DNA from: Edaphobacter bradus
GTDB taxonomy: Bacteria > Acidobacteriota > Terriglobia > Terriglobales > Acidobacteriaceae
Reading direction: 5' to 3'
Length of the DNA: 64,000 nt
NCBI RefSeq assembly: GCF_025685645.1
Contig: NZ_JAGSYF010000002.1
Coordinates: forward strand, 1 to 64,000
The notes under the pieces are model-generated. The model saw only the letters and a list, made by a program, of their open reading frames with translations. It was not told the origin of the DNA and searched no databases. Below, one piece after another: positions 13,499-56,088 of the stretch (its first letter is position 1; every line of letters begins with the position of its first letter). The translations under genes were made by a program, and so were the position numbers.

Positions 13499-14524
13499 TT
13501 ACTTAAGTATCTCTCTTTGCTGTTGCACGAGATCGACCGTTAGCGGCAGGTAATCGCCCTCTTGGCTGATCGCCTCCTGGCCTTCGCGGCTGAGGATGTA
13601 GGACAGAAACTCGCTCACCTTAGGATCGATTGGCTTCCCTGGAGCCCTGTTGATGTAGATGGGGATGTCGCGGAGGAGTGGATAGGTGCGGTTGACGACG
13701 TTTTCGCGGGTCGGCGCAATGTAAGGTGCGCCTTCGCGGGTGGCGATGGGAATGGGCCTAACGTCGGATGTGAGATATCTGATGCCGGAGTAAGCGAGGC
13801 CGTACTTATCAGCGGCGAGCGCAATGAGGCTTCGTCGGCCAGCAGGGGTGATGGTCTTGCCCGTGCTGTCGTAGATGTTGTCGAACTGGTGAATGCCACA
13901 GTTCCAACTGGAGCTTCCGCCCATCGTGGCGGCAGAGAAGAAGACGCCGAAGCCGCTATCGCTGGCATAGCCGTAGAGGTGAATAGGCTTGTCCGCCCAA
14001 TCCCCGGCGAGGCCGAGGTCTCCCCATTTCTGAATGTTGATTGGGGCGCCGAGCTTACGTTCTGTGCCGAAGATGGCGTCGAGCTGCGGCAGGGTGAGCC
14101 CCTTGAGCGGGTTGTCCTTGTTGACGAAAACGACCATGGGAAAGGTCTTCCCTTCGACATCGTAGGCACCGGTTGCGGCGACGAAGCGAGTTGGGGCGTA
14201 GCCGAAGGTTTTGGAGAAACCGAGGCTTTCGACTGGCCAGATGTCGCGGCCCATATAGGCAAGGTCAGCATGGCCGGCATAAAGTCCACCAATGGCGGCG
14301 GCGGTGCTGTAGAGATGGTCTTCGAACCGAATGTCGGGCTGATATTTGTGGAAGCCATCTTCCCAGCGCTTCGCTAGAGCCACCATGCCGTCATTGCCCC
14401 AGACAACGAGGGTTCCGCTGACTTTCACGTGAGGCGTGTATTGCGGAAAGGAGGTGAGATCCTGTGCGGAGGCTGCGGCCGCGGCCAGCACCACGAAGAT
14501 GGAGAGTAGAGACGTCAGCTTCAT
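13499..14524 (-). CDS. PstS-like periplasmic binding protein (paralogue 1)
   Basis: 341 residues; signal peptide MKLTSLLSIFVVLAAAAASA then Q; AGGGAAG before ATG. The family plan is present: TLVVWGNDGMVALAKRWEDG (first ligand loop region), ADLAYMGRDIWPVE, ATGAYDVEGKTF, FVNKDNPL, QLDAIFGT, KWGDLGLAGDWADKPIHLYG and a C-terminal FLSYILSREGQEAISQEG. The segment after HLYGY reads ASDSGFGVFFSAAT; it keeps an S-G pair where PstS has its phosphate-binding GSGT, so it is the most PstS-like copy at this point. It lacks the RTGGW insert found in paralogues 2-5. Last gene of the eight-gene operon headed by the TonB receptor at 24796. Confidence 0.85.
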   Translation of the reverse strand: MKLTSLLSIFVVLAAAAASAQDLTSFPQYTPHVKVSGTLVVWGNDGMVALAKRWEDGFHKYQPDIRFEDHLYSTAAAIGGLYAGHADLAYMGRDIWPVESLGFSKTFGYAPTRFVAATGAYDVEGKTFPMVVFVNKDNPLKGLTLPQLDAIFGTERKLGAPINIQKWGDLGLAGDWADKPIHLYGYASDSGFGVFFSAATMGGSSSWNCGIHQFDNIYDSTGKTITPAGRRSLIALAADKYGLAYSGIRYLTSDVRPIPIATREGAPYIAPTRENVVNRTYPLLRDIPIYINRAPGKPIDPKVSEFLSYILSREGQEAISQEGDYLPLTVDLVQQQREILK

Positions 14525-14588
14525 AAGTCTTCCCTTTCGTGCAACTCATATTTTGGTGATGTCGCTGGAGGAGGGCTGCGCAGAGAGG

Positions 14589-15677
14589 TCATTCGAGCTT
14601 CTTGAGTTGCTCGCGTGCAACCTCGGGTGTGAGCGGGAGGTATCCGCCGTCGCGCAGAACGCCCTCTTGTCCCTGGCGGCTTAGGATGTAGGTGAGAAAT
14701 GCCTTGAGCTTCGGGTCTACGGGCTGGCCTGGCGGCCGATTGATGTAGACGTAAATGGATTCGACGAGCGGATAGGTCCGATTCGCCATATTCTCCAGCG
14801 TGGGCTCGACGAAGGGCCCACGTGCATCAGCAGCGAGCGCGAGTGGCCGCACTTCGTTGCTCTTACGCGCGCATTGTGGAGCGGTGTAGGCGATCCCGTA
14901 AGGATCCTTGGAGAGTGCGTCGATGATCATCTCGCAGCCTTGGGGCGGACGCGGGCCGGGTTTGAAGAGCATACCCACTTCGTTCAGCGCGAACTCGTGC
15001 AGTTCCGGGTTCCACTTATCGCCTCCCTGGAATGCCATTCGCTGCATCGAGAGGCAAAAGCTATTGGCGCTGAGATCATAAGCATAAGGATGGATAGGCT
15101 TGTCCGCCCACTCGCCAGTAAGTCCGAGTTGACCCCATGTGCGAATGTTCTTGTCGGGACCACGGGCGCTCGCAGTGGACCAATGCGTTCCTTGCCAGCC
15201 GCCCGTCCGCTGCGATCCGAAGATACCGTCGAGCTGCTGCACATCAAGTTTTACGAGAGGGTTCTTCTTATTGACGTAGATGACATTGGCGGGCATCTTT
15301 GCCGGCACATCGTAGGCACCCGTGGCAACAATGATCTCGAGGGGGTCGTAACCGTAGACCTCGTGGAAGGCGAGAGTTTCCATTGGCCAGCTGTGGTGTC
15401 CCATGAGGCCGAGGTCGGCGACGCCAGTATAGAGGGCGCCAATGGCGGCGGCGCCGCTCGGCAAAACGTCGGCGAAGCGGAGGCCGCGCTGGTGCTCGTG
15501 AATGCCTAGTTCCCAGGCGGTGAGCATCTGGAGCATCGTCTCATTGCCCCAAATCCGGATCTCGCCAAACTGATCGTTATTTCCCTGGTAGAGAGGGAGG
15601 CCATCGAGATTTTGTGCAGAGCCAGCGGTTGCCACGAGGGCTGTGATGATGAGAGCGATCATCTGTGTCCTTCGCAT
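14589..15677 (-). CDS. PstS-like periplasmic binding protein (paralogue 2)
   Basis: 362 residues from ATG 15677 (AAGGAG 8 nt upstream; an ATG six bases earlier sits too close to that site). Signal peptide MRRTQMIALIITALVATAGS-AQ. It carries IRIWGNETMLQMLTAWELGI, ADLGLMGHHSWPME, NKKNPLVKL, and the insert RTGGWQGTHWSTASARGPDK before NIRTWGQLGLTGEWADKPIH. The segment after the KPIH motif is AYDLSANSFCLSMQRMAFQ, unlike any other copy. The usual MGR is MGH here. C-terminus RQGQEGVLRDGGYLPLTPEV. Operon member, 65 bp before paralogue 1. Confidence 0.85.
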   Translation of the reverse strand: MRRTQMIALIITALVATAGSAQNLDGLPLYQGNNDQFGEIRIWGNETMLQMLTAWELGIHEHQRGLRFADVLPSGAAAIGALYTGVADLGLMGHHSWPMETLAFHEVYGYDPLEIIVATGAYDVPAKMPANVIYVNKKNPLVKLDVQQLDGIFGSQRTGGWQGTHWSTASARGPDKNIRTWGQLGLTGEWADKPIHPYAYDLSANSFCLSMQRMAFQGGDKWNPELHEFALNEVGMLFKPGPRPPQGCEMIIDALSKDPYGIAYTAPQCARKSNEVRPLALAADARGPFVEPTLENMANRTYPLVESIYVYINRPPGQPVDPKLKAFLTYILSRQGQEGVLRDGGYLPLTPEVAREQLKKLE

Positions 15678-15758
15678 CGGCATTCTCCTTGAACTACTGC
15701 TTGCGTAGCGAACTTGTGAGACGACAGCGTCAACGAAGTGATCGACGAGTCTTGTCGT

Positions 15759-16838
15759 CTACTGGAGCTTCTGAAGCTGCTCCAGTGCGAGTTGGGGGGT
15801 TAGGGGCAGGTATCCACCGGAGCGCGACACTACGTCCTGCCCCTCGCGGCTGAGCACATAGCTGAGGAACTCCTTCACCCCAGGATCGACCGGCTCGCCT
15901 GGCGTGCGATCGATGTAGATATAAACAGACCTGCTCAACGGATAGGTGCGGTCGGCGACCGTGGACTTGCTCAGTGGTATCGGGGTTGAGCCGCCCGCTG
16001 GTGTGATGGCGAGCGGTTTCAATGCATTTGTCTTGAAGCAGAGGCATGTATAGCCCACGCCGTAGCGGTCTTTGCTGAGAGCCTCGGCGATCTTGTCTCC
16101 CTCCGGGAATTCCCTAAGACCGGGGTTCCAGATATCGCCGCCCTGCATGATGTCCTTGCGGAAGGAGAGCATGGGACCGGAGACGGGTGAATAGATCGTT
16201 ACGGGATAACCGTAGACGTGGATGGGCTTGTCCGCCCACTCTCCAGTGAGACCGAGCTGACCCCAGGTGCGTATGTTTTGATCGGGACCACGTGCCGCTT
16301 CCGGGTGCCAGATGAACTTCTCATCCCATGCTCCGGTTCGCTGATCGCCAAAGATGCCGTCGAGCTGCTTGAGGCTGAGGCCAGAGAGAGGGTTGTCTTT
16401 GTTGACGAGGACAGCGAGGGCGAAGGTCCTGTCGGCAGCATCGAAGCTGCCAGTCGCGACCATAATCTCGAGCGGCAGATGGTGCTCACGCCGGAACATG
16501 ACATGACGTTCGAGGGGTAATATCGGACGGCTCATCAGAGCCATATCGGCCACGTGGGAGAAGAGCGCGGCCTGTGCGGTTTCAGTCCCCTTGAGGGTAT
16601 CGGAGAAACGGATTTCGGGCTGGTAGCGAACGAAGCCTTCTTCCCACAATTTCATCAGACCGGCCATCTCGTTGCTTCCCCAGCTGCGAAGGATCTCCGG
16701 CCCTGGAAGCTTCTGTTCCGGCTTGTATGGGGCCAGTTGCCGGGATGTCTGCGTGTAGACGGGGGTAGCGGCAACCGTGAGCGCGAGCAATGGCCAGAGA
16801 GGCGAGATCAAGGAACAGAGACGGTGAAAAGATTTCAT
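15759..16838 (-). CDS. PstS-like periplasmic binding protein (paralogue 3)
   Basis: 359 residues; signal peptide ends VAATPVYTQ; GGAGAA 9 nt before ATG. Motifs: ILRSWGSNEMAGLMKLWEEG, ADMALMSRPILPLE (MSR as in classical PstS-type SRP), VLVNKDNPLSGL, KQLDGIFGDQRTGAWDEKF, NIRTWGQLGLTGEWADKPIH. The variable ligand segment VTIYSPVSGPMLSFRKD is proline-rich and longer than in most copies. The YG-x-x-YTC region contains two nearby cysteines (YTCLCFKTN). Same minus-strand operon, 75 bp from paralogue 2. Confidence 0.85.
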   Translation of the reverse strand: MKSFHRLCSLISPLWPLLALTVAATPVYTQTSRQLAPYKPEQKLPGPEILRSWGSNEMAGLMKLWEEGFVRYQPEIRFSDTLKGTETAQAALFSHVADMALMSRPILPLERHVMFRREHHLPLEIMVATGSFDAADRTFALAVLVNKDNPLSGLSLKQLDGIFGDQRTGAWDEKFIWHPEAARGPDQNIRTWGQLGLTGEWADKPIHVYGYPVTIYSPVSGPMLSFRKDIMQGGDIWNPGLREFPEGDKIAEALSKDRYGVGYTCLCFKTNALKPLAITPAGGSTPIPLSKSTVADRTYPLSRSVYIYIDRTPGEPVDPGVKEFLSYVLSREGQDVVSRSGGYLPLTPQLALEQLQKLQ

Positions 16839-16908: not shown

Positions 16909-18000
16909 TCATTCGAGCTTACGAAGTTGCTCGGCAACGAGCTGGGGGGTGAGGGGTAAAAAATCTCCTTCGCGCAGGGCGTCCTCCTGGCCCTGCCTGC
17001 TCAACACGTAGCGAAGGAACTCCCTGATCTTTGGTTCCACTTTCGGGTCGGCAGGAGAACCATCCGGCCGGTCGGGGGAAAAGTAGATGTAGGCGGTGCG
17101 CACAAGGGGATACGTGCGGTCGGTCGTGGTCTTGCGAGTAAGCTCGACGAAGGCCCCCGCGTCATTCTCCGCGAGAGCAAGAGGTTTCGTCTGCTGGGTC
17201 TGGTAGTTCAGCGAAGTGTACGCAATTCCGTATCGATCATGGCTGAGAGCGTCCATCATCTTTGCGCGATCGTCGTACTCCAGAAGGGACTCGTTCCAGC
17301 TATCAGCTCCTCCCATCACTCTGGTCTGAAAGAAGGAGATGCCACCGGGGTAGATACCTGGAGGGCCGTAAGCGTGGATGGGCTTGTCGGCCCAATCGCC
17401 CTTCAGTCCGAGTTGGCCCCATGTACGGATGTCCTGCTCGGTACCACGGGCGATCTCGGAGTGCCAATTCAGATCCTGCCATCCTCCGGTACGATGTGCG
17501 CCATAGATGCCGTCAAGCTGATTCACGGTCAGTTTTGCGAGGGGGTTTTCCCGGTTGACGAAGACGGCAATTGCTGCCGCCTTGTGCGGCACGTTGTAGC
17601 TGCCTGTTGCGACGGCGATCTCGACGGGATAGAGGAGTGATCGACGGTAAACGCCATAAAACTCGTAGGGGTAGATCTTGCGTGTAGATACCGCAATATC
17701 CGCAACCCACTCGTGCAGCCCGAATTGGGCAGTGGCCGTCCCCTTCAGGGTGTCTGAGAAGTAGACGTCTGGTTGATATCTGTGGAAGCCATCTTCCCAT
17801 CGTTTCATCAAGGGACCCATCTGGTCACTGCCCCAACTCCGGATGACGCCGGCCAGCTTCGCACCGGGCTTGTATTCCGGAAGAGACGGGACGCTCTGCG
17901 CCCACATTGGCGCGGTCATCCCGGCGAGAGTTAAGCCGGCGAAAAGGCTGAGAGTCCGGCTGGAGGATCGATGATGAGTGACCATAGTCGGCAGTTTCAT
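16909..18000 (-). CDS. PstS-like periplasmic binding protein (paralogue 4)
   Basis: 363 residues with a long signal peptide (hydrophobic core LSLFAGLTLAGMTAPMWAQ after a basic His/Arg/Ser start). It has VIRSWGSDQMGPLMKRWEDG, ADIAVSTRKIYPYEF in place of the MGRxIWP motif, FVNRENPLAKL, RTGGWQDLNWHSEIARGTEQ and DIRTWGQLGLKGDWADKPIH. The variable segment GPPGIYPGGISFFQTRVM is glycine/proline-rich. Its linker to the C-terminal helix carries an extra SPDRPDGSPADPKVEP stretch. No clear ribosome-binding site. Operon member, 36 bp after paralogue 5. Confidence 0.85.
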   Translation of the reverse strand: MKLPTMVTHHRSSSRTLSLFAGLTLAGMTAPMWAQSVPSLPEYKPGAKLAGVIRSWGSDQMGPLMKRWEDGFHRYQPDVYFSDTLKGTATAQFGLHEWVADIAVSTRKIYPYEFYGVYRRSLLYPVEIAVATGSYNVPHKAAAIAVFVNRENPLAKLTVNQLDGIYGAHRTGGWQDLNWHSEIARGTEQDIRTWGQLGLKGDWADKPIHAYGPPGIYPGGISFFQTRVMGGADSWNESLLEYDDRAKMMDALSHDRYGIAYTSLNYQTQQTKPLALAENDAGAFVELTRKTTTDRTYPLVRTAYIYFSPDRPDGSPADPKVEPKIREFLRYVLSRQGQEDALREGDFLPLTPQLVAEQLRKLE

Positions 18001-18036: not shown

Positions 18037-19212
18037 CTAATCAAGCTTTCGCAGCGTTTCGTGAGCAGCTTCCGGATTGAGAGGGATAAACATTCCGTCG
18101 TCGACGACGATCTGCTGGCCTTCGCGACTGAGGACAAATTTGAGGAACTCTTTGAGCCGGGGGTCGAACGGCTTGCCCGGCGGCCGATTGAGGTAGAGAT
18201 AAACTGAGTTAACCAGTGGGTAGGTGCGTTGATAGCAACTCTCGGCAGTAGGCTGAATGTATGGTCCCTGATCCTGTGCGCCGATTGCGAGCGCTTTCAC
18301 GCCGGGATTCTTCTCGACGACACGCATCAGGTTGAAACCGATGCCGCCTGGGTCGTTTGCGACGCTTGAGACGATCTGCGCGTCGGCAGGGATCTCGACA
18401 CCTCCGCGTACAATCTCGTTCATCGCGGGGTTCCACTTGTCGCCGCCTTTGAAGACGACGCGCTGGATCAGCTCCGACCAGTTGCTCAAGGTGGCGTCGA
18501 TCCCGTAGAGGTGGATCGGCTTGTCCTTCCAGTCGCCCGTAAGGCCGAGCTGGCCCCAAGTGCGAATGTCCCCTTCGGGACCTCGCGCGCTCGCGGTCGA
18601 CCAATGCGTCCCGTTCCAGCCGCCGGTGCGCTGGGCACCAAAGATGCCATCGAGCTGTCTCAGAGAGAGTTGGCCTATGGGGTTGTCTTTGTTGACAAAG
18701 ATGATCGCAGCCGGCGTGTTGCCCTTCCTCAGATTGAAACCTCCGGTCGCGAACATCACTTCAAAAGGGTCATAGCCGAAGGTTTCCTCGAAGGCCTTGA
18801 GATCTGAGCGCCACGCGGTGTGACCCATTACATTGATGTCGGCAGTGCCGGCGCAGAGGCCGCTGAAGCCGGTTGGGAGCATGTAGTCGCCGAAGCGGAC
18901 AAGGGGGTGGAGTTTGAGGAACGCATCCTCCCACTCGTGAATGAGGTGCTGTGTGAGCTCGGTTCCGTGGATGCGGATGACGCCGTGAAGTTGTTGCGGG
19001 TTGGTCTCGTCGTGGTAGGGTGGTAGGCCGCTCAGATCATATTGCTGGGCGAGGGCGGGGCGGCGTGCCATCAATGAGACCAGACCGATCAGCGCCAGAA
19101 GCCTACAAAGCCTCGCCGCCGGCGAACGGCCGCTCGTGCGTGACGAATGCGAGGCTCGCGCGAGGTCTTTGCGATTCTGGACGGCCTGCGTTCTGATCGA
19201 ATTCATCTGCAT
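18037..19212 (-). CDS. PstS-like periplasmic binding protein (paralogue 5)
   Basis: 391 residues; the N-terminus is long and basic (about 35 residues) before the hydrophobic core RLLALIGLVSLMARRPALAQ. AGGG lies before the second ATG at 19206, which is an alternative start. Motifs: VIRIHGTELTQHLIHEWEDA, ADINVMGHTAWRSDL (again MGH), FVNKDNPIGQL, RTGGWNGTHWSTASARGPEG, DIRTWGQLGLTGDWKDKPIH and the variable segment IDATLSNWSELIQRVVFKG. The late segment NDPGGIGFN replaces the usual DPYGIAYT. Only 3 bp separate it from paralogue 6, so translation is probably coupled. Confidence 0.85.
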   Translation of the reverse strand: MQMNSIRTQAVQNRKDLARASHSSRTSGRSPAARLCRLLALIGLVSLMARRPALAQQYDLSGLPPYHDETNPQQLHGVIRIHGTELTQHLIHEWEDAFLKLHPLVRFGDYMLPTGFSGLCAGTADINVMGHTAWRSDLKAFEETFGYDPFEVMFATGGFNLRKGNTPAAIIFVNKDNPIGQLSLRQLDGIFGAQRTGGWNGTHWSTASARGPEGDIRTWGQLGLTGDWKDKPIHLYGIDATLSNWSELIQRVVFKGGDKWNPAMNEIVRGGVEIPADAQIVSSVANDPGGIGFNLMRVVEKNPGVKALAIGAQDQGPYIQPTAESCYQRTYPLVNSVYLYLNRPPGKPFDPRLKEFLKFVLSREGQQIVVDDGMFIPLNPEAAHETLRKLD

Positions 19213-19215: not shown

Positions 19216-20376
19216 TCAGTCCAGCTTCTTTAGCTCTGCGGGAACATCTTTGGGATCAAGCGACATGAAACCGTCGCTTGCGGTCATGGAGGAGATGATC
19301 TCCTGGCCCTCCTTTGAGAGGGCGAGCCGCAAGTACTCCCGGATCCACGGCTCCATCGGCTTGCCTGGTGCACGGTTAACCATCAGGTGAATGCCTCCTG
19401 CGAGGGGATAGAGATCGCCAGGTGTGCCGCGCGAGATCTTGCTGTCTGCCGTCTCGGACAAAGGAAGAAGCCGGACTTTGCCGCTCAGGTCGACGGAGCG
19501 GTCCCAACCTTCGTCGACGGGAAACCAGCCGATGAAGCCGATGCCGAAGGGATCATTCGCCACTGCATTCATCACATCTTCAATGGAGGGCAGGTATTCA
19601 CCGCGGGCTGTCCACGGATAGCCGCCCAGACGCATGCGCGTGGTGGAAACAACGGGCAGACCGCGCAGGGTGGGCAGATAGACGTGGATCTCGCGCTTGG
19701 CATAGTCGCCGCCATTGTTGCCCAGATTCGCTTCGTGGAAGGCGACCTGGCCCCAGCGTGTGATATCCCCCTTGGGAGATCCCTGCGTGAAGATCGATGT
19801 GACCTGATCGAGATCGAGCGCCGATACAGGGTTGCGTACGTTGACCCATACTGCGGGCGGAAACTTGCCCGGAGGATAGTGATCTGCGTCGGGCGTGTTA
19901 TCCCAGCCGATCTGAACGTCGGTGGGCTGATAGCCATAGACGGAAGCGAACGCGTCCTTGTCCCAGAATGTGGCATCGCGTGCAATCGGGCCAATAGCAG
20001 ATTTTCCGGAGGTGATGCCGCTGATTGCTTCTGCGGAGGACATCATATGCAAGGAAAATCTGAAGCCGGGGTGAGTTTTGACGAAGAGTTCGTTGAGCTT
20101 TTCGATCAACGGCTGAACGAGGTCATTGCCAGTCATGTAGATGCTGCCGTCCGGCCGCAAATAGGTTGCGCCGGCGGGGAACTTCACCGACTGAGCGACA
20201 TAGGGCTGTGGACCATCGAGGGCCTTCTCCTGGGCGAAGCCATGAGAAGAATACGGGCCTTGCACGATGATCAGCGCCGCGGCAAAGGCAATGAGATGGA
20301 TATGCCGGCGTCGCGAAGTGTTCAGGTATAAGTGGGTTGGCTTCCTGCAACTCCTCTTATGGCTTGACGGGTTCAT
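19216..20376 (-). CDS. Divergent PstS-like binding protein (paralogue 6)
   Basis: 386 residues from ATG 20376, which has AGGAC 8 nt upstream; an in-frame ATG at 20406 is possible. Signal peptide core IHLIAFAAALIIVQG, ending GFAQ. This is one of the two most divergent copies: the first loop reads DGSIYMTGNDLVQPLIEKLN, the MGR motif is replaced by SAIGPIARDATFWDKDAF, and the TWGQLG element is TRWGQVAFHEANLGNNGG. The ligand segment LPTLRGLPVVSTTRM has no counterpart. The C-terminal helix KEGQEIISSMTASDGFMSL, with PAELKKLD, keeps the family ending. Its placement next to paralogue 7 suggests the two diverged as a pair. Confidence 0.8.
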   Translation of the reverse strand: MNPSSHKRSCRKPTHLYLNTSRRRHIHLIAFAAALIIVQGPYSSHGFAQEKALDGPQPYVAQSVKFPAGATYLRPDGSIYMTGNDLVQPLIEKLNELFVKTHPGFRFSLHMMSSAEAISGITSGKSAIGPIARDATFWDKDAFASVYGYQPTDVQIGWDNTPDADHYPPGKFPPAVWVNVRNPVSALDLDQVTSIFTQGSPKGDITRWGQVAFHEANLGNNGGDYAKREIHVYLPTLRGLPVVSTTRMRLGGYPWTARGEYLPSIEDVMNAVANDPFGIGFIGWFPVDEGWDRSVDLSGKVRLLPLSETADSKISRGTPGDLYPLAGGIHLMVNRAPGKPMEPWIREYLRLALSKEGQEIISSMTASDGFMSLDPKDVPAELKKLD

Positions 20377-20409: not shown

Positions 20410-21486
20410 TCATCGGAGCTTCGCCAGGTCGTTCCCAACTTCGACGGTATCGAGCGGGATGTAGCCGTGAGGATCCTCGGCGATAATCCGTTGCCCTTCC
20501 TTCGACAGAACCATCCGCATGTACTCCTTTACGAATGGGTCGAAGGGCTTGCCCGAGACGAGCCGGCCATAGAGATACAGATAGCGGTCCAAAGGGTAGC
20601 GCCCGCTCTGAACACTGGCTGCGTCTGGGCGAGAAGGTTCACCGAGGTCGCCACCAGTGACGTTGACGAGCTTGACGTCGGAGGTGACCTCGTTGGCGGC
20701 TACAAGCCCGATTGCGAGCGGGTCTGAGGCGACGTTCCTGAGCACGGCTGCATAGGTGGTGAACATCGCGTAGTTCACGACGGGCTGACCTCCCCCGAGT
20801 TTGCGCGTGAAGACATACTCTCCGAACGTCGGATCCTGGGAGGGGTAATGATCGCTCCAGGGAAGGCCGCAGGGATGGATGGATTGGGCTTCCAACTCGC
20901 CTTTCAGGCCAAGCTGGCCCCAGTGGCTGTAAACAGGTCTGCGGACCGGTTCCGTGAAAATGGATGTAAGCTGAGCGACCGACAGGGTGTCGATAGGGCT
21001 GCTCTTGTTCACGACAACTGCGATCGGGCTAAGCTTTGCGGCGGGAGTCACAGAGGCGTGTGCGACGCGGATTGCAAAGGATGGGCCATGGACAATATCG
21101 GTGTAGACGAGATTGCTCTGATAGTCCAGAGCCATAGGAGCGAAAGCCGTTGAGTCCCACATCAGCGAGTAGAGAGCACCGTAGCTGTTGCTCTTCACGT
21201 AGGTGAACTTCGTCCCCGGATGGGACTGAGTAAAGAGCGCGTTCAGCTTCAGGATCATCCCTTCCATGTCATCGAAGCCGACGATACGGATGGTTCCGTC
21301 CGGCATGACGTAGCCTGCGCCCTTGGGAGGCGCTGCTGGCTGGGGCTGATAAGAGGGGAGCGATGCGTCCGCCTGCCTGATGGGTGCGCCGCCAAGAGCG
21401 TTAGCAGGTGCTGTGGCCATCGTCGTCACAGCCAGGATGCCGTCGAGGACCACAAGCCACCGTATTGCCTTGCTCTTTGCCATCAT
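20410..21486 (-). CDS. Divergent PstS-like binding protein (paralogue 7)
   Basis: 358 residues from the double ATG at 21486/21483; the longer in-frame extension overlaps the TonB receptor and is rejected. Signal peptide RWLVVLDGILAVTTMATAPA. The N-terminal motif is GTIRIVGFDDMEGMILKLNA; the MGR motif has become AFAPMALDYQSNL. VVNKSSPIDTL and QLTSIFTEPVRRPVY stand for the usual NKDNPL/QLDGIFG. SHWGQLGLKGELEAQSIHPC introduces a Cys where Tyr is normal. With paralogue 6 it shares the PDG(S/T)I start. First binding protein after the TonB receptor in the operon, 61 bp downstream of it. Confidence 0.8.
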   Translation of the reverse strand: MMAKSKAIRWLVVLDGILAVTTMATAPANALGGAPIRQADASLPSYQPQPAAPPKGAGYVMPDGTIRIVGFDDMEGMILKLNALFTQSHPGTKFTYVKSNSYGALYSLMWDSTAFAPMALDYQSNLVYTDIVHGPSFAIRVAHASVTPAAKLSPIAVVVNKSSPIDTLSVAQLTSIFTEPVRRPVYSHWGQLGLKGELEAQSIHPCGLPWSDHYPSQDPTFGEYVFTRKLGGGQPVVNYAMFTTYAAVLRNVASDPLAIGLVAANEVTSDVKLVNVTGGDLGEPSRPDAASVQSGRYPLDRYLYLYGRLVSGKPFDPFVKEYMRMVLSKEGQRIIAEDPHGYIPLDTVEVGNDLAKLR

Positions 21487-21547: not shown

Positions 21548-24500
21548 TTAGAAGAGCAGCTTAAGGGCGAACTGCAGCTGGCGCCCTTGAGTGGCGACGG
21601 AGGTGAGCGTACCGGCTGTACCGGATAGGGAGCCGTTGACATTGAAGATCTGCGTCTGTGCACTCGCCGGGTTGGCAAAGTTAGTGTGGTTGGTTACGTT
21701 GAAGGCCTGTGCTTGAAACTGGGCGCGTAAGCGCTCGGTAATGACCTGATCCTTCATCAGACCTGTCGTCCAGTTGAAGAGGCCCGGGCCGTCGAGGGTG
21801 TTGCGGCGGCCGGTGCCGAGTCGGGGTCCGGCGAGGCCGGGGCCGTAGGCGTAAGTGCCAGGGAAGGCGAAACACGAGGTATCGATGTAGTGGACGTTGT
21901 GACTGTTCGTGCAGCTGCGACCGTGGACGATGCGATCAGGAAACTGAAATGTCTGGGAGCCGAGCAATCCGAGAGGGTCGCCGCCGACGACCGGGGTGAA
22001 GGGGATACCGGAACGAATGGTGAAGATATTGTTTGTGCTCCATCCGCGGAGGATAGAGGTGTAGCCTCCTCCTCGCTTAATGTTCGGAAGAGGAGCGATA
22101 GCGTTTGCGGAGAAGACGTGGCGGATATCGAAATCAGAGTCTGCGCGGTCGAGACTGAGGTCGAAGGCGGGAAGACCTGAGACCGAGTTGCCAAAGCTGG
22201 CGCCCGAGACTTGCGAGGAGCTGTCATCGATGGAGTGCGACCAGGTATAGGCGATCTTGCCGATAACTCCCTTGGGAGCCGCGTAGCTGATGGAGGTCTG
22301 GAGAGAGTGGTAGATTGAGCTGCCAGCGTAGATGGTGTCGGACTCTGTGCCGACGGCGGGGTTCAATTGCAAGGCGGAGCGCGCGGCGCCGGTGACCTTG
22401 GAGAGGTCAGGCCAGTAGTAGTTGCCGGAGGGGTCCTTGCCTAAGCTGGGGACGTTGTTGATGTCATTGGTGCTGAATAACTGATGAACTCCATGCGAGC
22501 CGATGTAGCCAATCTGGAAGACTGTGTTGGGCGTGAGCTGCTGCTGGAGATTGACGTTGTTTTGGATAACGTAACTGCGAGGCGGGTTCTGGGGCGTATA
22601 GATAACGCGAAGTTGGGGTGTTGTGGTGACGAATGGTGTGACAGGAAAGAGACCCTTTCCTGTAGTGCCAGAGTACGTAACCCGTCCCTCTTGGTAGGAG
22701 GGGGCGCTCGAAAGGAGTTGGAGCTGCAATGTGTAATTCAGGGGCAGGATGTCGTAGATGCCTGAGGCGACGGACACAATAGTTTTCCCATTGCGGAAGG
22801 GATCCCAGGCAACGCCAATACGTGGCTCGAAGTTTTTGGTCGTCGGATTATTGGTGAAAAAGGTGTGGATCGGAACGGCTGCGGGCGAGGTCTGGGTGGG
22901 CAGCGCGCCGATCCGACCGCGAGTCTCAGTCGTGTCCGTCACCATCTCGTACCGAAGCCCAAGGTTGATGGTGAGGTAGTTGCGCATCTTCCAACTGTCC
23001 TGGACGTAGGCAGAATAGAGCGTCTGCCGCAAGTCGTGCGGGACAACGGGCGTTCCTGGAACGCGGCCCTCGAAGAACGTGGGCACGTTGGTGAGGAAGT
23101 TGTTGATCGATCCGAAGTTCCACTCCCCATTTGGAAGAACGCCGCCATTGGTGTTGTTCTGGATGTATTCGATCACCCCTCCGAAGGTGATGGAGTGCTT
23201 GCCGCGCACATAAGTGGCATCGTCGTAGAGTTGGTAGGAGTTGTAGTGGTAGGAGTTTGTGCCGACTGCACCTGAACCACCCTGAACGGTAGTAAGGCTG
23301 GAAACGAGAAGCTGTCCCGTAGTGTAACCGGCATAGTACGCGAGGGCGGGATTATTGACCGCAGGATTGATGACGGCCTTTTCGGTTGGAGCGATGGCGA
23401 CGGAGCGGTTGTAGCCAAGCCGGAAGGAGTTGGTGAGTCTCGGCGAGAAGAGATGTACCTCTTCGATCGCAGCCGTGGTCCGGCGCGAAATAGCTTCATC
23501 GTAAAGGGTGTTGGTCTGATCCGCGGAGTCAAGCGAGGCGGTGTCGTAGAGCAGCGTACCGTGAATTGAATCGCTCTGTGAGAAGTTGTGGTCCCCGTGG
23601 ACAGTGGAAAAATCCTCGTTCGCTTTCTGCGTCGTCAAAAAGCTATAGATTCCCGTATTTCCGCTTACGGTCGAATTGGGGAGGGGGAAGAGTGTGAGGA
23701 AGGGAGATACGGCGGGGCTGATCTTGAGCTGCTGCAGGCCGTTCTTACACGTGGAGCCACTGGTGCAAGTGACGAGTCCGGTGCGCGCGTTCGGTGAGAG
23801 CACGGTCGATTGCATCGAGACTCCCTGCGCCTGACGGAAGCCCTCATAGTTGAAGAAGAAGAATGTCTTGTCGCGAATGATTGGACCGCCGAGGGTTCCG
23901 CCGAATTGGTTGCGACGGAAGGAGGGCTCGCCACCACCAACCGGATCGAAGTAACTGCGGGCATCGAAGACGCTGTTGCGGATGAAATCGTACGCCGAAC
24001 CGTGTAGCTGATTGGAACCCTGGCGGGTGATGGAATTAATGACGCCACCGGACATGCGGCCGTACTGCGCGGGGGCGTCCGAGGTGATTACGTTGAACTC
24101 CTGCACTGCGTCGACGCCGAGCGTGGCTCCCGAGACAGAGCCGGGGCCGCCGTTGGCGTAATCGTTGATGTTAACACCGTCGAGTCGATAACTGTTCTGC
24201 TGTGGCCGATTGCCACCGATGGTCAACTGTGCCCCCAGGCCACGGGATAGCCGGGTTGTGGCAGTGGCCGCACCTGGAAATTGAGTGAGTATCTGAGAGA
24301 CACCGGAGTTGAGTGTCGCTAACGTGGTCCAGTCGCGGCCGTTGAGCGGGAGGTCTCGGGTCTGTTTTCCATCCACGATGCCCTGGACGGAAGTGTCGAC
24401 AGAGTTGACCTGGTTGCTCGAGCTTTCGACTGTGATGGTGATGTCGGTTGTGGCGAGCGTCAGCGGAATGTCAAAGTCGCGCACGGCGCCAACCGTGAGC

Positions 24501-26043: not shown

Positions 26044-26138
26044 GGATTTATCCTCATTCTTCTCGTCTGCAAACCTCGACGGCGTGACCTTCGTAAGTCG
26101 CACGGGCTTGACGTCTCCCGTTAGCCTCGTGGGGCCGG

Positions 26139-48055: not shown

Positions 48056-48832
48056 CTAGTTAAGAGAAAGCGCAGGGATCGCAGCCTTCTCTTTCCGGAT
48101 CGCACTCTTGTCGTCACTCCACTTCTTCCATGCAGGGTTCGTGACGGCCAGTTCCGCGCGGGTTTTGTTCTTGACGATCTCGCGCGCGGCAAGAGACTTG
48201 AGGTCCTTGTACTCAAGCACAATGAAGCTGGACCACGGCGCGCCGGCGGGGTTTTGGTTGACATAGCAAGAGTAGGAGGAAAGTACGCCAGCCTTCATCC
48301 AGCCCTCAAACTGCGGAGCAACATATCCCCGAACGTAACTGACATACTTTGGCATATCGACGGTCACATCGTACTCAAGCACAAAAAACTGGGAATCCTT
48401 TGTCGTTACCGCGCCCGACCCTTCTCCGACGACATCAGCTGTACCGGACGTCTCGGCAACAGCAGTCGTCTGCGCCTTCTCGGTCAGTCCGCCGGGGTAG
48501 GCCTCTTCGATCTTCTGCCACCGGCCGAGGTCAGTGAAGTGCTTGAAGCGCAGGACCAGAAACATGTCCGGCGTATTATCTGCCGCATACGTAGTGAAAA
48601 GAGCGTTGTAGGCAGCGAAGATACCCTCATTCTTCCATTTCTCTAACTGACCAATCCCTTCGCTTTGCATGACCTTGCGAAAGCTTGCTCGCGCCCCCGG
48701 CCTGGCGTGATATGTGATGATGAGGGCAGTAGGCCCATCTATCTGCTCTTGAGCATGTGCTTGATTGGAAGCGCCAACCAGAGAGAGCCCAACGACAGCC
48801 ACAACAGTACGGATACCATGTGCAACTTTCAT
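48056..48832 (-). CDS. Secreted protein with two dimeric-alpha/beta-barrel-like halves
   Basis: 258 residues from ATG 48832 (AGGG upstream); a much longer in-frame extension overlaps the next gene and is rejected. Signal peptide IRTVVAVVGLSLVGASNQAHA. The mature part looks like two tandem units: ALIITYHARPGARASFRKVM with YNALFTTYAADNTPDMFLVL, and FVLEYDVTVDMPKYVSYVRG with YSCYVNQNPAGAPWSSFIVL. Each has a strand, a helix and a W-K/E-x-G-I/V turn, as in NIPSNAP/antibiotic-monooxygenase-like folds. No catalytic residue can be assigned. Last gene of the four-gene minus run from 52217, 7 bp after its neighbour. Confidence 0.6.
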   Translation of the reverse strand: MKVAHGIRTVVAVVGLSLVGASNQAHAQEQIDGPTALIITYHARPGARASFRKVMQSEGIGQLEKWKNEGIFAAYNALFTTYAADNTPDMFLVLRFKHFTDLGRWQKIEEAYPGGLTEKAQTTAVAETSGTADVVGEGSGAVTTKDSQFFVLEYDVTVDMPKYVSYVRGYVAPQFEGWMKAGVLSSYSCYVNQNPAGAPWSSFIVLEYKDLKSLAAREIVKNKTRAELAVTNPAWKKWSDDKSAIRKEKAAIPALSLN

Positions 48833-51206: not shown

Positions 51207-52217
51207 TTAGTAGCCCGCAACAACCACGACCGGAGCGCCTGAGTGCATCGCAGTGATGAATAGATGACGTGTCTTTGCGTCGAATGCGATGCTACCCAAA
51301 CCGGGTTCCAGCTTGTACTGGCCCCCGACGGTGTAATTGATATAGGCATTCATGCGGACTCCAGTAAGAGTACCGTCCTGGTGCGCCACGAACGACGCAG
51401 CCTTCCATTGCCCCTTCCCCTGCGGCGTCCAGGCGAAGGTCTCGCGGGCAGGTCCTGCACCACCCTTGAGTTCAATGAATGTAAAGCCGGAGTCCGTGTC
51501 GATGATCTCGATCACCCCGTCCTCGCAGGCAACGAAGAGGCGGCGTCCCTTGGTATCAAGCGCCAGACCCGACGGCTTACTGCCACTCATGATGGGATAG
51601 TCGCCATCATTTTTCCCGGTTCCGTGATTGAGAACGTGAATGACGTTCCCGGACGTATCGGCAACATAGACGTGACCGAGCGTCCCACACACGATCTGGC
51701 CGGCACCGGTGGCGATACGATCCGACTTGACGACCTTGCCGGACTCCGCGTCGACGGTCGCCAACGAGCCTCCCGCACTGACAGCTTCCACTGTCTTCGC
51801 ATCATCGTCGTAGCAAAGGGAGGAGGCCCCCCTAGTGGGCAGTTTCTCGGTAGCGGTAATCTTCATATCCGCAAGCGAGAATGCGATGATACTTCCATCT
51901 CCAGTCGCGAACCCCTTCGTGGATGCACCCTGCTCGTCGCCATTCATGACAGGAATAAGCAGTACATCCTGCGCATTTTTCAGCTGGATATTCCCAAGCT
52001 TGTCCCCTGTGTCTGCGTTGAGGACAGTGATGCCGTCATCGCCCGCAATAAATAGGCGGCGACTATCGCTATCCACGGCTATCCCCTGCGCGCTCGCGCC
52101 TGAGAGTTTGTACTCCCCCAGAGATTTGTAAGTTTGCGCGGACACGTCGTGAACAGCCAGCCATACACACATTGCGCTGCAGAGCCACAGTGCTTTGATA
52201 CTTGGAATGCGATGCAT
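51207..52217 (-). CDS. Secreted YVTN-type beta-propeller protein 3
   Basis: 336 residues from ATG 52217 (an ATG at 52226 is also possible). Signal peptide IKALWLCSAMCVWLAVHDVS-AQ. Blade motifs: IAVDSDSRRLFIAGDDGITV, LCYDDDAKTVEAVSAGGSL, LGHVYVADTSGNVIHVLNHG, LALDTKGRRLFVACEDGVIE and IAFDAKTRHLFITAMHSGAP. It is more divergent than propellers 1 and 2. First gene of a four-gene minus run with the triplicated-domain proteins. Upstream on this strand a palindromic ATGAA-N6-TTCAT (52322-52307) is shared with the PepSY 2 promoter, so both directions may be controlled together. Confidence 0.75.
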   Translation of the reverse strand: MHRIPSIKALWLCSAMCVWLAVHDVSAQTYKSLGEYKLSGASAQGIAVDSDSRRLFIAGDDGITVLNADTGDKLGNIQLKNAQDVLLIPVMNGDEQGASTKGFATGDGSIIAFSLADMKITATEKLPTRGASSLCYDDDAKTVEAVSAGGSLATVDAESGKVVKSDRIATGAGQIVCGTLGHVYVADTSGNVIHVLNHGTGKNDGDYPIMSGSKPSGLALDTKGRRLFVACEDGVIEIIDTDSGFTFIELKGGAGPARETFAWTPQGKGQWKAASFVAHQDGTLTGVRMNAYINYTVGGQYKLEPGLGSIAFDAKTRHLFITAMHSGAPVVVVAGY

Positions 52218-52306
52218 GAGTGCCATCCAAATGGGAATAAGAAACGAGAGCAAATCTAGTTAGACGAATCGCGACTGTCAACCAAATTGAAGCCCGTAAA
52301 ACTGAA

Positions 52307-52344
52307 ATGAACAACATTTCATCCGGCACTCAGTGATTGCTAAT
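52307..52344 (+). promoter_or_regulatory. 38-bp four-box operator for PepSY protein 2, with an overlapping second palindrome
   Basis: Plus strand: ATGAA (52307), TTCAT (52318), CTCAG (52329), CTAAT (52340), 11 bp apart. A second ATGAA-N6-TTCAT (52343-52358) begins inside the last box. The 196-bp space serves two divergent genes. Confidence 0.7.
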
Positions 52345-52413
52345 GAAGTTTCCTTCATCTTGCTCTTGCGTGCCCAATATCCTAATAAGCAAAATCTCGA
52401 TAGGCTGAGCCCA

Positions 52414-53511
52414 ATGAAGAAACTTGTCTTGAATCTCCATTTATGTGTTGGTGTGATCGCCGCGCTCTTCCTTATCTCGCTGAGCATCACAGGGGCAATC
52501 ATCGCCTTCGAAAATGAGTTGAACCGCGCGGTTCACCCTCAACTGACGAATGTGAGACCGGAGGGTCAGCCACTGGATTGGGACAGCGTTCGCGCTCGAG
52601 TCGAGCAGCAAGCGCCCGGTTGGAAGTTGATTCGATTTTATTTTCCTGACCGGTCCGATCGGTCCACCTACGTTCGCCTGCGCTCGAGCACGACCCACCG
52701 TATTCGCCACGTCTACGTCAACCAATACACAGGTGCCATCCTTGGCAGCACAGAAGACGGCAGCAACTGGATACTTAAAGTTCACGACCTGCACGTTAAC
52801 CTGCTATCGGGAAAGATTGGGAATCGGATCGTGACCTGGAGCACGTTTGGGCTGCTGCTCCTCTCACTCTCAGGGATCATCTTGTGGTGGCCGCGCAAAG
52901 TATTTCGCTTTCAGCGAACGCCTTCATTGGTACGCTTCAACCGCGACCTGCATTACAGCGTCGGATTCTGGTCTTTTCTTGCCATGTTTGCTTTTTCAAT
53001 CACGGGTCTGGCGCTGCACTACCAGACGGGGAAGTTGTTGAATCTGCTGAATACTCCAGCTACGGCTGCCAGCATGCCCGGCCACGGAACCTCGATCGAG
53101 GGGATGTTGAGAACGGCGCGCGAAGCGCTCCCCGGAAGCACGATCCCGCGGCTTCTGCTTCCCGAAAAAGCCGGGGATCCAGTCTTTATTTACCAACGGT
53201 TTCCTGAGGACAGGACACCGGCTGGCCGCAGCTTCACGACGCTTGACCCTAAGACTGGCGCGGTTCTCAGCTTTGGATCAACGAGAACAGCCCCCCTTCT
53301 GCAAACAGCACTCGTGCAATGGACTCGGGAGATTCACACCGGCACGATTCTGGGGTTCCCCACTCAGATTGCAGCTTCCTTCTTTGGGCTCATGCTTTCC
53401 GTCCTCGCCATCACCGGTTCGGTCATCTGGATCAGCAAACAATGGGCGTTGGCAAGGGGGCGTCGCGCCCTTCTGCGAAGGGACAGAGCCCAAGCCCTCT
53501 CCGGAAACTGA
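52414..53511 (+). CDS. PepSY-associated transmembrane protein 2
   Basis: 365 residues from ATG 52414. Helix 1 LHLCVGVIAALFLISLSITG; first PepSY region with YVNQYTGAILGSTEDGSNWI; the HDLHVNLLSG motif (cf. LHRWFG in PepSY 1); helix pair TFGLLLLSLSGIILWWPRKV; DLHYSVGFWSFLAMFAFSIT; second PepSY region FTTLDPKTGAVLSFGSTRTA; IHTGTILG; last helix FFGLMLSVLAITGSVIWISK. The repeated His residues (HDLH, DLHY, IHTG) are in positions that could bind heme. It has its own operator. The AtoE carrier follows after a further promoter. Confidence 0.8.
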   Translation: MKKLVLNLHLCVGVIAALFLISLSITGAIIAFENELNRAVHPQLTNVRPEGQPLDWDSVRARVEQQAPGWKLIRFYFPDRSDRSTYVRLRSSTTHRIRHVYVNQYTGAILGSTEDGSNWILKVHDLHVNLLSGKIGNRIVTWSTFGLLLLSLSGIILWWPRKVFRFQRTPSLVRFNRDLHYSVGFWSFLAMFAFSITGLALHYQTGKLLNLLNTPATAASMPGHGTSIEGMLRTAREALPGSTIPRLLLPEKAGDPVFIYQRFPEDRTPAGRSFTTLDPKTGAVLSFGSTRTAPLLQTALVQWTREIHTGTILGFPTQIAASFFGLMLSVLAITGSVIWISKQWALARGRRALLRRDRAQALSGN

Positions 53512-53551: not shown

Positions 53552-53606
53552 CTGAAAGGGTTTTCATCTACAGTTCATGGGTACTTCATTTGCGTGCAAG
53601 TAAATG
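53552..53606 (+). promoter_or_regulatory. 38-bp four-box operator and -10-like hexamer for the AtoE carrier
   Basis: Plus strand: CTGAA (53552), TTCAT (53563), TTCAT (53574), TTCAT (53585), exactly 11 bp apart; TAAATG at 53601-53606 after 11 bp. The first 16 bp, CTGAAAGGGTTTTCAT, are identical to the site before the two-component genes. Confidence 0.9.
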
Positions 53607-53655
53607 GCGTAGCTTGAGTTTTCAATCTCTCCGAGAAGGCCAAAAAGAACATCCC

Positions 53656-55044
53656 ATGGACGAAGTAACTGTACTCAGTCACGAGCACAAATACACAGCA
53701 CTCGGAAGGGTGACCACCTTCTTCGTCTACCTTTTTGACCAGATCATGCCGGACCCTTATGTCTTCGCTGTGATTCTGACGTTTGTCGCAGCGTTGCTGG
53801 CGTTCTTCTTCGCACCCAATGCGCGCCCACAGCAGATTGCCACTGCCTGGTATGGCGGTGTCTTCAACCTGTTTACCTTCGCCTTCCAGATGGTGATCAT
53901 GCTGGTAGCTGGATACGCTCTGGCCAGCGCACCGGCAATTCGCAACCTGCTCGGCAGGATCGCCTCGATTCCGACAAACCCCGCGGCTGCCGTATCTCTA
54001 ACGATCGTCGTCTCCATGATTGCGTCATGGATCAACTGGGGGATGGGTCTGGTGACGGCTGCGCTTTTGGCACGTGAGATCGCCAAACGTATACCCATGG
54101 ACTTCGGCTGGCTAGTCGCTGCGGCCTATAGTGGGTTCGTCATCTCGACGGAGGGATTGTCCGGATCAATTGCATTGTCGCAGGCCACGCATGGCTCGGC
54201 GCTTAACATCGTCGAGAAGGTCACCGGTATCGTCACGCCGCTGTCTCACACCGTCTTCACACGCTTCAATCTGATTCCACTCGCTGTGCTGCTGATTGTC
54301 CTCCCCATTGTCTTCCGCTACATCGGGCCGGCCCCGGCGAACACCTTCGCTGCAAACCCCGATAAGCTACGCAGCGAAGACGCAACTCCGCAGGCAAAAG
54401 AGAAGACCAATACCCTCGGTGGCAAACTCGACAACGCCTGGATTTTGACAGTGCTTCTGGTCTTGTTCATCGCCACAGCGCTTGGGATGGAGCTTTACCG
54501 GACAAAGGGATCGCTGGACCTGAACTCTGTCATCATGACGCTCCTTATGCTCGGGCTTCTGTTGCACTGGACACCCGCTGCCTACGTAGCGGCCATCAAG
54601 CACGCCGCCCGCATCTCCGGGCCGCTTATCCTGCAGTATCCACTGTATGGCGGGCTCATGGGCATCATGACAACAACTGGCTTGGCAGGCGTACTCTCCA
54701 AGGTCTTCCTCTCGTTCTCGACCGCACACAGCATCCACTTCTGGACCTACCTCACCTCGGTCATCATCACCTTCTTCGTTCCAAGCGGAGGCGGCCACTG
54801 GGCGGTGCAAGGTCCCTTTGCCGTTCCTGCAGCTCGAGATCTGCATGCATCGCTCGCCGGCGTAACCATGTCCGTAGCAATGGGCGAGTCCGTGGCAAAC
54901 ATGTTGCAGCCATTCTTCGCTTTACCCATCCTCGCTATCGCAGGAATCAAGGTTCAGCGCATGATGGGCTTCATGGTGATTACCTTTCTCGTCTCCTTTG
55001 TCGCCTTTGGCCTTTCCCTTCTGTTCCTCGTGCCAGCACAGTGA
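53656..55044 (+). CDS. AtoE-type short-chain fatty acid carrier
   Basis: 462 residues from ATG 53656 (50 nt after the -10-like hexamer). A polytopic inner-membrane protein of the AtoE/TIGR00366 family: YLFDQIMPDPYVFAVILTFV, MIASWINWGMGLVTAALLAR, GFVISTEGLSGSIALSQATH, GPLILQYPLYGGLMGIMTTT, FFVPSGGGHWAVQGPFAVPA and MGESVANMLQPFFALPILAI. Family members carry acetoacetate, butyrate and similar short carboxylates by secondary transport. Length is normal (AtoE about 440). The next binding-protein gene starts 6 bp after its stop, a second carrier-plus-PstS-like pair after the one at 26453. Confidence 0.9.
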   Translation: MDEVTVLSHEHKYTALGRVTTFFVYLFDQIMPDPYVFAVILTFVAALLAFFFAPNARPQQIATAWYGGVFNLFTFAFQMVIMLVAGYALASAPAIRNLLGRIASIPTNPAAAVSLTIVVSMIASWINWGMGLVTAALLAREIAKRIPMDFGWLVAAAYSGFVISTEGLSGSIALSQATHGSALNIVEKVTGIVTPLSHTVFTRFNLIPLAVLLIVLPIVFRYIGPAPANTFAANPDKLRSEDATPQAKEKTNTLGGKLDNAWILTVLLVLFIATALGMELYRTKGSLDLNSVIMTLLMLGLLLHWTPAAYVAAIKHAARISGPLILQYPLYGGLMGIMTTTGLAGVLSKVFLSFSTAHSIHFWTYLTSVIITFFVPSGGGHWAVQGPFAVPAARDLHASLAGVTMSVAMGESVANMLQPFFALPILAIAGIKVQRMMGFMVITFLVSFVAFGLSLLFLVPAQ

Positions 55045-55050
55045 TCAATT

Positions 55051-56088
55051 GTGAAAGTCGCGACGACCTTGCCAGACCGATCACTTAGAAGGCCTCAGAG
55101 ACTTGTGGCCGCCGGCATCGCCGCACTGTTCGCGGCACAGATGGAAGCACAGAGCTCGCCTATGCCTCCTTACACTCCCACCCGACAGGTTGCCGGAGTC
55201 ATTCACACATGGGGCAGTCCACAGATTAGCGACCTGCTCCGTCGCTACGAAGACGGTTTTCGAAAATTTCAGCCATTTGTCCACTTTGAAGACGATCTCA
55301 AAAGCACCGTCTCCGGAGTTGCGGGAGTCTACACCGGGCGTGCCGACATCGCCCTTATGGGCCGCGAGATCTGGCCCAGCGAAGTTCAGGCGTTCGAGTC
55401 TGTTACTGGTCATTCGCCGATCGCCATTGAGGTTGCTACCGGTGCCTACGATGTCCCCAAAGCCACGTATGCGCTGATGATCTTCGTCCATGGGTCGAAT
55501 CCCATTACAAGCCTTTCCACCGTCCAGCTCGACCACATCTTCGGAGACGCTCAACAAAAGCCGGTTCGGACGTGGGGTGAACTCGGACTCAAGGGCACAT
55601 GGGCAAAGCGGAGTATCCACCTCTACGGCTTCAGCATGGACAATGACAAGGCGTTGATCTTCAGCCGGATCATCTTCAAACAGAGTGCGCGATGGAACTG
55701 CAACTTACACGAGTATTCCAACTCCTCCGGCGTTATTGCGGCCGACGCTGGTGACCTGATCCTTCGAGCTGTCGCAAAGGACCCTGCTGGCATTGGAATC
55801 TCCAACATCCATTACGCCACCCAGTCTGTTAAGGTCTTGCCACTCTCCATGCAGGATAAGGAGCCCCCCGTAGCGCCCACGCGCAAGAATGTCGCTTCGA
55901 GACGCTACCCCTTATCTCGCGCGGTGTACATGGTGATAAATCGGAGCGCAGAGAACCCCGCTGTGCTTGAATTCCTTCACTACGTCCTGAGCCGCCAGGG
56001 CCAGGAGGACGTCCGCAACGATGGGATGTATCTCCCCCTAACACCGAACATCGTCGAAGAGCAGCGACGTTTGCTGGAATCCAGATGA
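55051..56088 (+). CDS. PstS-like periplasmic binding protein (paralogue 19), coupled to the AtoE carrier
   Basis: 345 residues from GTG 55051, 6 bp after the AtoE stop. Signal peptide RRPQRLVAAGIAALFAAQME-AQ. VIHTWGSPQISDLLRRYEDG, ADIALMGREIWPSEVQAFES (the clearest MGRxIWP in the set), FVHGSNPITSL, QLDHIFGDAQQKPVRTWGEL and GLKGTWAKRSIHLYG. No RTGGW insert. The ligand segment is FSMDNDKALIFSRIIFKQS, then RWNCNLHEY as in paralogue 14. C-terminus RQGQEDVRNDGMYLPLTPNI. It converges on the histidine kinase gene with 86 bp between stops. Confidence 0.85.
   Translation: MKVATTLPDRSLRRPQRLVAAGIAALFAAQMEAQSSPMPPYTPTRQVAGVIHTWGSPQISDLLRRYEDGFRKFQPFVHFEDDLKSTVSGVAGVYTGRADIALMGREIWPSEVQAFESVTGHSPIAIEVATGAYDVPKATYALMIFVHGSNPITSLSTVQLDHIFGDAQQKPVRTWGELGLKGTWAKRSIHLYGFSMDNDKALIFSRIIFKQSARWNCNLHEYSNSSGVIAADAGDLILRAVAKDPAGIGISNIHYATQSVKVLPLSMQDKEPPVAPTRKNVASRRYPLSRAVYMVINRSAENPAVLEFLHYVLSRQGQEDVRNDGMYLPLTPNIVEEQRRLLESR

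Follow-up and report, generated by a model that had tools for sequence, protein, structure and literature searches.

Nineteen PstS-fold genes and two TonB receptors in one genomic island of Edaphobacter bradus

Introduction

The question raised by this locus is what a bacterium does with nineteen PstS-like proteins when the phosphate permease is not encoded beside them. The locus lies in bases 1-64000 of contig C2 (NZ_JAGSYF010000002.1) of Edaphobacter bradus, whose 4.75 Mb genome has a completeness of 99.7%; this stretch is called the window here, and its left edge is the contig end. Between 13499 and 56088, open reading frame (ORF) calls and their translation give 19 intact ORFs for secreted proteins of ~340-400 residues with PstS-like periplasmic binding protein (PBP) domains, named PBP01 to PBP19. 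An initial annotation of this DNA had described nineteen secreted PstS-fold genes without pstC, pstA, pstB or phoU, and had proposed repeated tandem duplication followed by ligand diversification as their origin. The gene count has stood, and the proposed origin has been revised. Our answer to the question, which we consider close to an even call, is that the island may be a TonB-receptor-linked uptake system, where the PBPs capture organic acids or metal chelates and secondary transporters import them.

PstS-fold proteins without the phosphate site

All nineteen proteins match TIGR02136 (ptsS_2; E 1e-16 to 1e-44), at 60-153 bits against a curated PstS cut-off of 206.6. The cut-off of the other PstS model, TIGR00975, is 205, and the true PstS of this genome reaches 376.7 bits to it. 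When ten of the PBPs were scanned against Pfam, all ten matched PF12849, nine above its cut-off, and no TctC family match was listed for them. A hidden Markov model built from the set retrieved exactly these 19 proteins from the 4.75 Mb genome, with no further copy outside the island at E<=1e-5. By eye, an N-terminal signal sequence ending A-Q is recognisable in most of them, and none of the 19 is lipoprotein-like. The motifs that the initial annotation listed as shared (MGRxIWP and VNKDNPL among them) are present as it described, and so are its subgroups: the RTGGW-type insert in 2-5, 9, 10, 12 and 15, the N-terminal extension in 9, 10 and 12, and the outliers 6, 7 and 18. Several PBP starts fall inside the longest ORF and were corrected, and gene 7 ends at 21486, not 21678.

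The AlphaFold2 model of PBP15 (mean predicted local distance difference test score, pLDDT, 95.3) has its best PDB match in Pseudomonas aeruginosa PstS 4omb (Z 27.1, root-mean-square deviation 6.6 over 295 residues), and on this predicted structure the window PBPs are of the PstS fold. Like PstS proteins of the TIGR02136 type, of which 4omb is an example, they have a Type II PBP fold, 33% identity, and shared secretion and scaffold motifs; unlike these, they lack the contact arginine and the SGT threonine, have no PstCAB/PhoU alongside, and all score under the PstS cut-off. The R-x3-SGT arginine corresponds to Arg135 of E. coli, which is known to contact phosphate. When 373 proteins were aligned, 29/29 pst-type homologues had this arginine, as did the genome's own PstS, against 0/19 window PBPs and ~1% of 324 relatives; the SGT threonine is also found in 0/19, and the scaffold W and the NP and YP pairs are retained. 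It is most likely, judging from these residues, that the 19 PBPs no longer bind phosphate in the manner of PstS, and a PstS role was rejected because of the contact residues, the model cut-offs and the gene neighbourhood.

At the positions aligned with the phosphate contacts, conservation within orthologous groups is higher (0.79 vs 0.69), and nine groups show between them a larger number of different consensus residues (4.8 vs 3.6; combined p 0.002, alignment-based), which is the pattern expected from different ligands. The ligand diversification that had been suggested is in this way supported by indirect evidence.

As had been claimed for the 64 kb, no match to PstC, PstA, PstB or PhoU was found in the window by tblastn with the genome's own proteins, nor in the next 20 kb on one side, the other side being the contig end, and no permease operon adjoins the window on the side where sequence continues. 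A normal pst operon had been expected elsewhere in the genome, and a complete pstS-pstC-pstA-pstB-phoU operon, adjoining a two-component pair, is located on contig C1 near 1.25 Mb. In a scan of GTDB genomes with seven PBPs, which gave 342 hits and from which 71 loci were kept (genomes and loci are referred to below by G and L numbers), pstC, pstA and phoU are present in 0/71; PstB matches in L098 and L110 were rejected, as they are only 25-32% matches to general ATP-binding cassette (ABC) ATPases.

TonB receptors, fusions and carboxylate transporters

The nineteen PBP genes of the initial annotation are all present. It had omitted the genes that separate them, which encode two TonB-dependent receptors, three beta-propellers, two proteins of the PepSY-TM type and the AtoE-type transporter. 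The run TBDR1-PBP07-06-05-04-03-02-01, headed by a TonB-dependent receptor (TBDR), is on one strand with gaps of 9-75 bp, so that TBDR1 and seven PBPs look like one operon, and a co-transcribable TonB receptor with binding proteins is present in the window. Elsewhere, arrays of at least 3 PBPs are found in 53/71 loci, the largest with 16 PBPs in 21 kb, and these 53 array loci, many of them on short contigs, include a TonB receptor in 22, a propeller in 16 and DUF59k (the name used here for a small secreted sensor-like protein) in 21. PepSY_TM is encoded twice in the window and in 12 related loci.

Several of these parts are also found fused. Two PBPs are joined in one ORF in many loci, and four PstS-fold domains share one ORF in two genomes (L122:2171-5770 and L124:11055; 1200 and 1240 residues), where PBP11 is also fused to propeller 2 (L122, L124). 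A NIPSNAP-like domain, for which Pfam gives no match, is a separate gene in the window and is fused to PBP15 in ~15 loci. In L072 and L090, DUF59k is fused N-terminally to the plug of a TonB receptor, and in L059 it is joined to a propeller; its model (pLDDT 94.1) has a weak likeness to PAS/GAF/Cache sensor folds (TM score ~0.4). Such fusions suggest that the parts work together, in what may be a periplasmic assembly around the receptor.

The transporters near the arrays point to carboxylates. The array loci add up to 0.79 Mb, for which transporter densities in 17 whole genomes would predict 0.084 2HCT (citrate/malate) and 0.46 DctA (dicarboxylate) transporters; five 2HCT (P 3e-8) and five DctA (P 1e-4) transporters are present, together with CitMHS twice and TcuC once, and TcuC is found again in G051. 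Full-length AtoE is encoded in 3/3 genomes of the genus with arrays of at least 3 PBPs, every time within the island, vs 3/57 other genomes of the genus (hypergeometric P 6e-4). Three genomes of the genus (G006, G007 and G009) have AtoE but no PBP array at E 1e-20, and AtoE is therefore not exclusive to the island. Genes for an isocitrate lyase family protein, malate synthase, PrpD and galactarate dehydratase are beside some arrays as single cases.

Distribution and origin of the set

Among other genomes of the genus, 5/36 carry any copy (11 in G031, 3 in G025 and one each in three others), and G051, a genome of another order, has 4. The 71 loci span Acidobacteriota, Opitutaceae and other Verrucomicrobiota, Alpha-, Beta- and Gammaproteobacteria, Eremiobacterota and Actinomycetes. 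Many carriers are metagenome-assembled genomes, and isolates include Paraburkholderia piptadeniae, Sphingomonas gilva, Novosphingobium kunmingense, Streptomyces scopuliridis and Actinopolymorpha alba; in Opitutaceae, a draft genome of 3 Mb reaches 83 copies. Streptomyces (L082), Actinopolymorpha (L103) and an Arthrobacter plasmid (L156) carry PBPs of the family though these organisms are without an outer membrane. In L103, a gene for a family-5 solute-binding protein adjoins the PBP. Horizontal transfer is the natural reading of this spread, because it is patchy. A plasmid location for the island itself was considered and rejected, since only distant homologues, in Novosphingobium, Paraburkholderia and Arthrobacter, are on plasmids.

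All 343 array-type proteins group in a single clade that excludes pst-type PstS, with support 96 in one tree and SH-aLRT 99 in a mixture-model tree. A monophyletic acidobacterial clade separate from PstS had been predicted; the separation holds, and the restriction to acidobacteria does not, as the clade takes in at least five phyla. Within it the window PBPs are scattered, with 16 label changes vs a shuffled mean of 16.3, and a tree that forces the 19 together is 1408 log units worse (approximately unbiased test, p-AU 0.0003). For fifteen of the 19, a protein from a different phylum gives a better score than any fellow PBP of the island does, and the groups of PBP15 (support 100, with Streptomyces), 10, 06, 05, 04, 07, 16 and 18 each include members from other phyla. 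Some modules, namely 07-06, 05-04 and 10-propeller-11, are kept together across loci. Pairwise identity among the 19 has a median of 36.5% and a maximum of 54%, for the closest in-island pair.

The scatter, the higher cross-phylum scores and the low in-island identity together indicate that the set was assembled from old orthologous groups, which by sequence comparison are common to Verrucomicrobiota, Pseudomonadota, Eremiobacterota and Actinomycetota. The 19 PBPs do not stem mainly from local duplication, and the repeated tandem duplication first proposed is not borne out by the label changes, by the rejected one-clade tree or by the fifteen proteins that are nearer to other phyla. That the genes are adjacent and alike in fold would also suit recent local tandem duplication with drift and no special function, an account that deserves hardly any credence in view of the identities, the groups common to other phyla, the rejected tree and the intactness of all ORFs.

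Proposed function and its alternatives

In the uptake system proposed here, TonB receptors would carry a family of ligands across the outer membrane, and the PBPs, with their own pocket in each orthologous group, would catch and hold these ligands near the receptor. The beta-propellers and the sensor-like domain would act as a set with the PBPs, and passage through the inner membrane would be by secondary transporters (AtoE here; DctA, 2HCT, CitMHS and TcuC elsewhere) and not by PstCAB, while PepSY-TM proteins might reduce chelated metal. The ligands, we infer, are most likely organic acids or metal chelates of these, the class of organic acids being suggested by the carboxylate-transporter neighbours, and metal-organic acid chelates being an option because of the PepSY proteins and CopRS-like regulators. 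A wider and more tentative proposal, which may well prove wrong, is that these loci represent an undescribed TonB-coupled, ABC-independent uptake class, in which varied PstS-fold sets pass acids or complexes to carboxylate transporters and which is spread as movable modules over at least five phyla.

Several observations weigh against uptake of organic acids through TonB receptors. A di- or tricarboxylate or citrate transporter is shown by 11/53 array loci only, the window contributes AtoE alone, and the transporters vary between genomes, so the link may be a loose one. Some of the 17 background genomes had been chosen for carrying such a neighbour, which makes the density test conservative. 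Actinomycetes, without an outer membrane, carry a few PBPs, one of them beside a propeller on the Arthrobacter plasmid, and the TonB receptor is therefore not a universal partner. The pocket positions were read off an alignment with PstS rather than off a structure with bound ligand. Finally, metals fit PepSY and the CopRS-like regulators better than acids do.

These last neighbours are consistent with an unlikely alternative, where the PBPs would bind ferric or other metal complexes from siderophore-type TonB receptors, PepSY-TM would reduce the metal, and carboxylate transporters would recycle the chelator. Apart from the recurrence of PepSY_TM in the window and in related loci, in the same-genus genomes G021 and G024 a PBP06-like gene has a TonB receptor (of siderophore type in G021) and PepSY_TM as its immediate neighbours, and on a plasmid of Paraburkholderia sp. 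PGU19 two PBPs and a TonB receptor accompany a PepSY protein and a 2Fe-2S protein; the island's regulators are nearest CzcRS/CopRS, and the wider fold is common to FbpA-type proteins. The transporters enriched at arrays, however, are carboxylate importers and not metal permeases, no His/Tyr metal-ligand set conserved across groups was seen at the phosphate-contact-aligned positions, and siderophore biosynthesis genes were not seen in the window. A role in sensing rather than uptake, in which the PBPs would present their ligands to the sensor-like domain and the histidine kinase or would work outside the cell, is quite improbable. The two-component system is conserved with the island in G031 and G051, DUF59k has its weak likeness to sensor folds, and PstS of P. 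aeruginosa reportedly has a transport-independent role in biofilms; up to 16 PBPs per array would nevertheless far exceed the need of one kinase, and the transporter enrichment and the TBDR operons favour uptake.

If the PBPs were additional binding proteins for phosphate or its esters and made use of the genome's PstCAB, this would account for sequences and a fold that are nearest PstS, and for a phosphodiesterase-like gene in the island, with a complete pst operon available in the genome. This explanation is very improbable when the contact Arg and Thr are missing in 19/19, all scores are far under the PstS cut-off and a pst permease is present in 0/71 loci; nineteen solute-binding proteins for one permease would also be unusual.

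Gene content and borders of the island

The features of the window are listed in Table 1. To the left of the island, an open frame of at least 1428 residues with NHL-type repeats (3-4286, minus strand) is cut by the contig end and includes tandem DNA repeats of 240 bp x 4.6 at 331-1439 and of 129 bp x 5.7 at 3218-3947. A 230-residue flavin adenine dinucleotide (FAD)-dependent monooxygenase (12241-12933, minus strand), probably truncated, stands at the left island border. Respiratory complex I genes are found at 60171-63999 of the window and at L045 1-10600. The flanking NuoN is 34-38% identical to NuoN of ten same-genus genomes, and the flanking nuo genes look like a second, foreign-type copy of complex I; since this copy is an odd one, no empty site in relatives could be drawn. 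In the G031 island (L047:9579-15620), the PBP array is separated from the conserved propeller and two-component genes by a resistance-nodulation-division (RND) efflux system, with an outer-membrane efflux protein and an RND pump.

Table 1. Features of the Edaphobacter bradus window, with positions in the 64000 bases
Feature	Position	Strand	Remarks
PBP01, secreted PstS-fold protein	13499..14524	-	Last gene of TBDR1 operon; PF12849 and TIGR02136 below cut-off; gaps 64-75 bp
PBP02	14589..15683	-	Insert group; related to PBP05
PBP03	15759..16838	-	Insert group; related to PBP04
PBP04	16909..18000	-	63% to Verrucomicrobiota; 05-04 pair kept in Opitutaceae and Proteobacteria
PBP05	18037..19206	-	Pair partner of PBP04
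PBP06	19216..20376	-	Divergent; 07-06 pair conserved
PBP07	20410..21486	-	Divergent; first PBP after TBDR1
TBDR1, TonB-dependent receptor	21548..24796	-	Heads operon with PBP07-01; CarboxypepD_reg, Plug, PF25183 barrel
PROP1, secreted YncE-like beta-propeller	25024..26103	-	81% homologue in G031 island
PBP08	27712..28794	+	
TBDR2, TonB-dependent receptor	28923..32153	-	61% in G031 island
PBP09	32228..33400	-	N-extended; directly upstream of TBDR2, same strand
PBP10	33818..35020	+	N-extended
PROP2, beta-propeller	35041..36060	+	20 bp from PBP10 and 5 bp from PBP11
PBP11	36066..37091	+	
PBP12	37126..38304	-	N-extended; 68% orthologue in G031 island
PBP13	38331..39404	-	
PBP14	39401..40462	-	4 bp overlap with PBP13
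PBP15	40519..41595	-	Orthologues in five phyla, often fused to NIPSNAP-like domain
PEPSY1, PepSY_TM inner-membrane protein	41808..43097	+	PF03929, 2e-38
PBP16	43003..44055	-	
PBP17	44045..45094	-	
PBP18	45455..46492	+	Copy closest to true PstS, without R-x3-SGT; 152.8 bits to TIGR02136
Secreted alkaline-phosphatase-superfamily phosphodiesterase-like protein	46529..48019	+	PF01663; homologue beside PBPs in L105
NIPSNAP-like protein	48056..48826	-	Matches N-terminal domain fused to PBP15 orthologues; no Pfam match
Two mutually similar secreted proteins	48840-51349	-	No Pfam match; homologue beside 2HCT transporter in L066
PROP3, beta-propeller	51207..52253	-	
PEPSY2, PepSY_TM inner-membrane protein	52333..53511	+	PF03929, 5e-55
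AtoE-type short-chain fatty acid transporter	53590..55044	+	Also inside G031 and G025 islands
PBP19	55051..56088	+	6 bp after AtoE gene
Sensor histidine kinase	56175..57701	-	Nearest model CzcS/CopS, below cut-off
Response regulator	57698..58378	-	Nearest model CzcR/CopR, below cut-off; 87% in G031 island
DUF59k, small secreted sensor-like protein	58556..59110	-	

Relation to known systems and significance

A published description of PstS-fold arrays with TonB receptors was not found in the open-licence literature, which is weak evidence of absence, and parts of the arrangement resemble known systems. As in SusC/SusD pairs, a TonB receptor is encoded beside its own ligand-binding proteins; SusD is a surface helical protein, whereas the window PBPs are secreted, of the PstS fold and many per receptor. 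PepSY ferric siderophore reductase loci likewise have PepSY_TM beside a TonB receptor, and the present island differs from these in its PstS-fold arrays and carboxylate transporters. YncE and TonB genes have been reported near xoxF3 in acidobacteria (PMC10875860); for a lanthanide link, no xoxF was seen among the window ORFs looked at.

The closest known parallel is the expansion of the TctC/Bug solute-binding proteins, of which Rhodoplanes has 434 copies, with nine genes in the longest array and with more than half of the solute-binding proteins having their best match in the same genome (PMC5994714). The TctC/Bug families of Bordetella and Rhodoplanes and the family described here are both large, with many members away from their own permease, varied transporters and regulators nearby and a carboxylate theme. 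Unlike TctC/Bug, the window-type PBPs are PstS-like, form arrays of up to 16, are tied to TonB receptors and belong to groups common to several phyla. If the proposed reading is true, this would be a second case, after TctC/Bug, in which a binding-protein fold has multiplied apart from the pump that it belongs to.

Public records name such proteins 'phosphate-binding' or 'substrate-binding', so that large families, such as the 83 copies in one Opitutaceae draft genome, are probably misread as phosphate uptake. The fusions make the hand-over of ligands in the periplasm, from TonB receptor to inner membrane, directly testable. If the ligands are indeed organic acids or metal-acid chelates, these arrays may be a substantial route of acid uptake for soil and rhizosphere bacteria.

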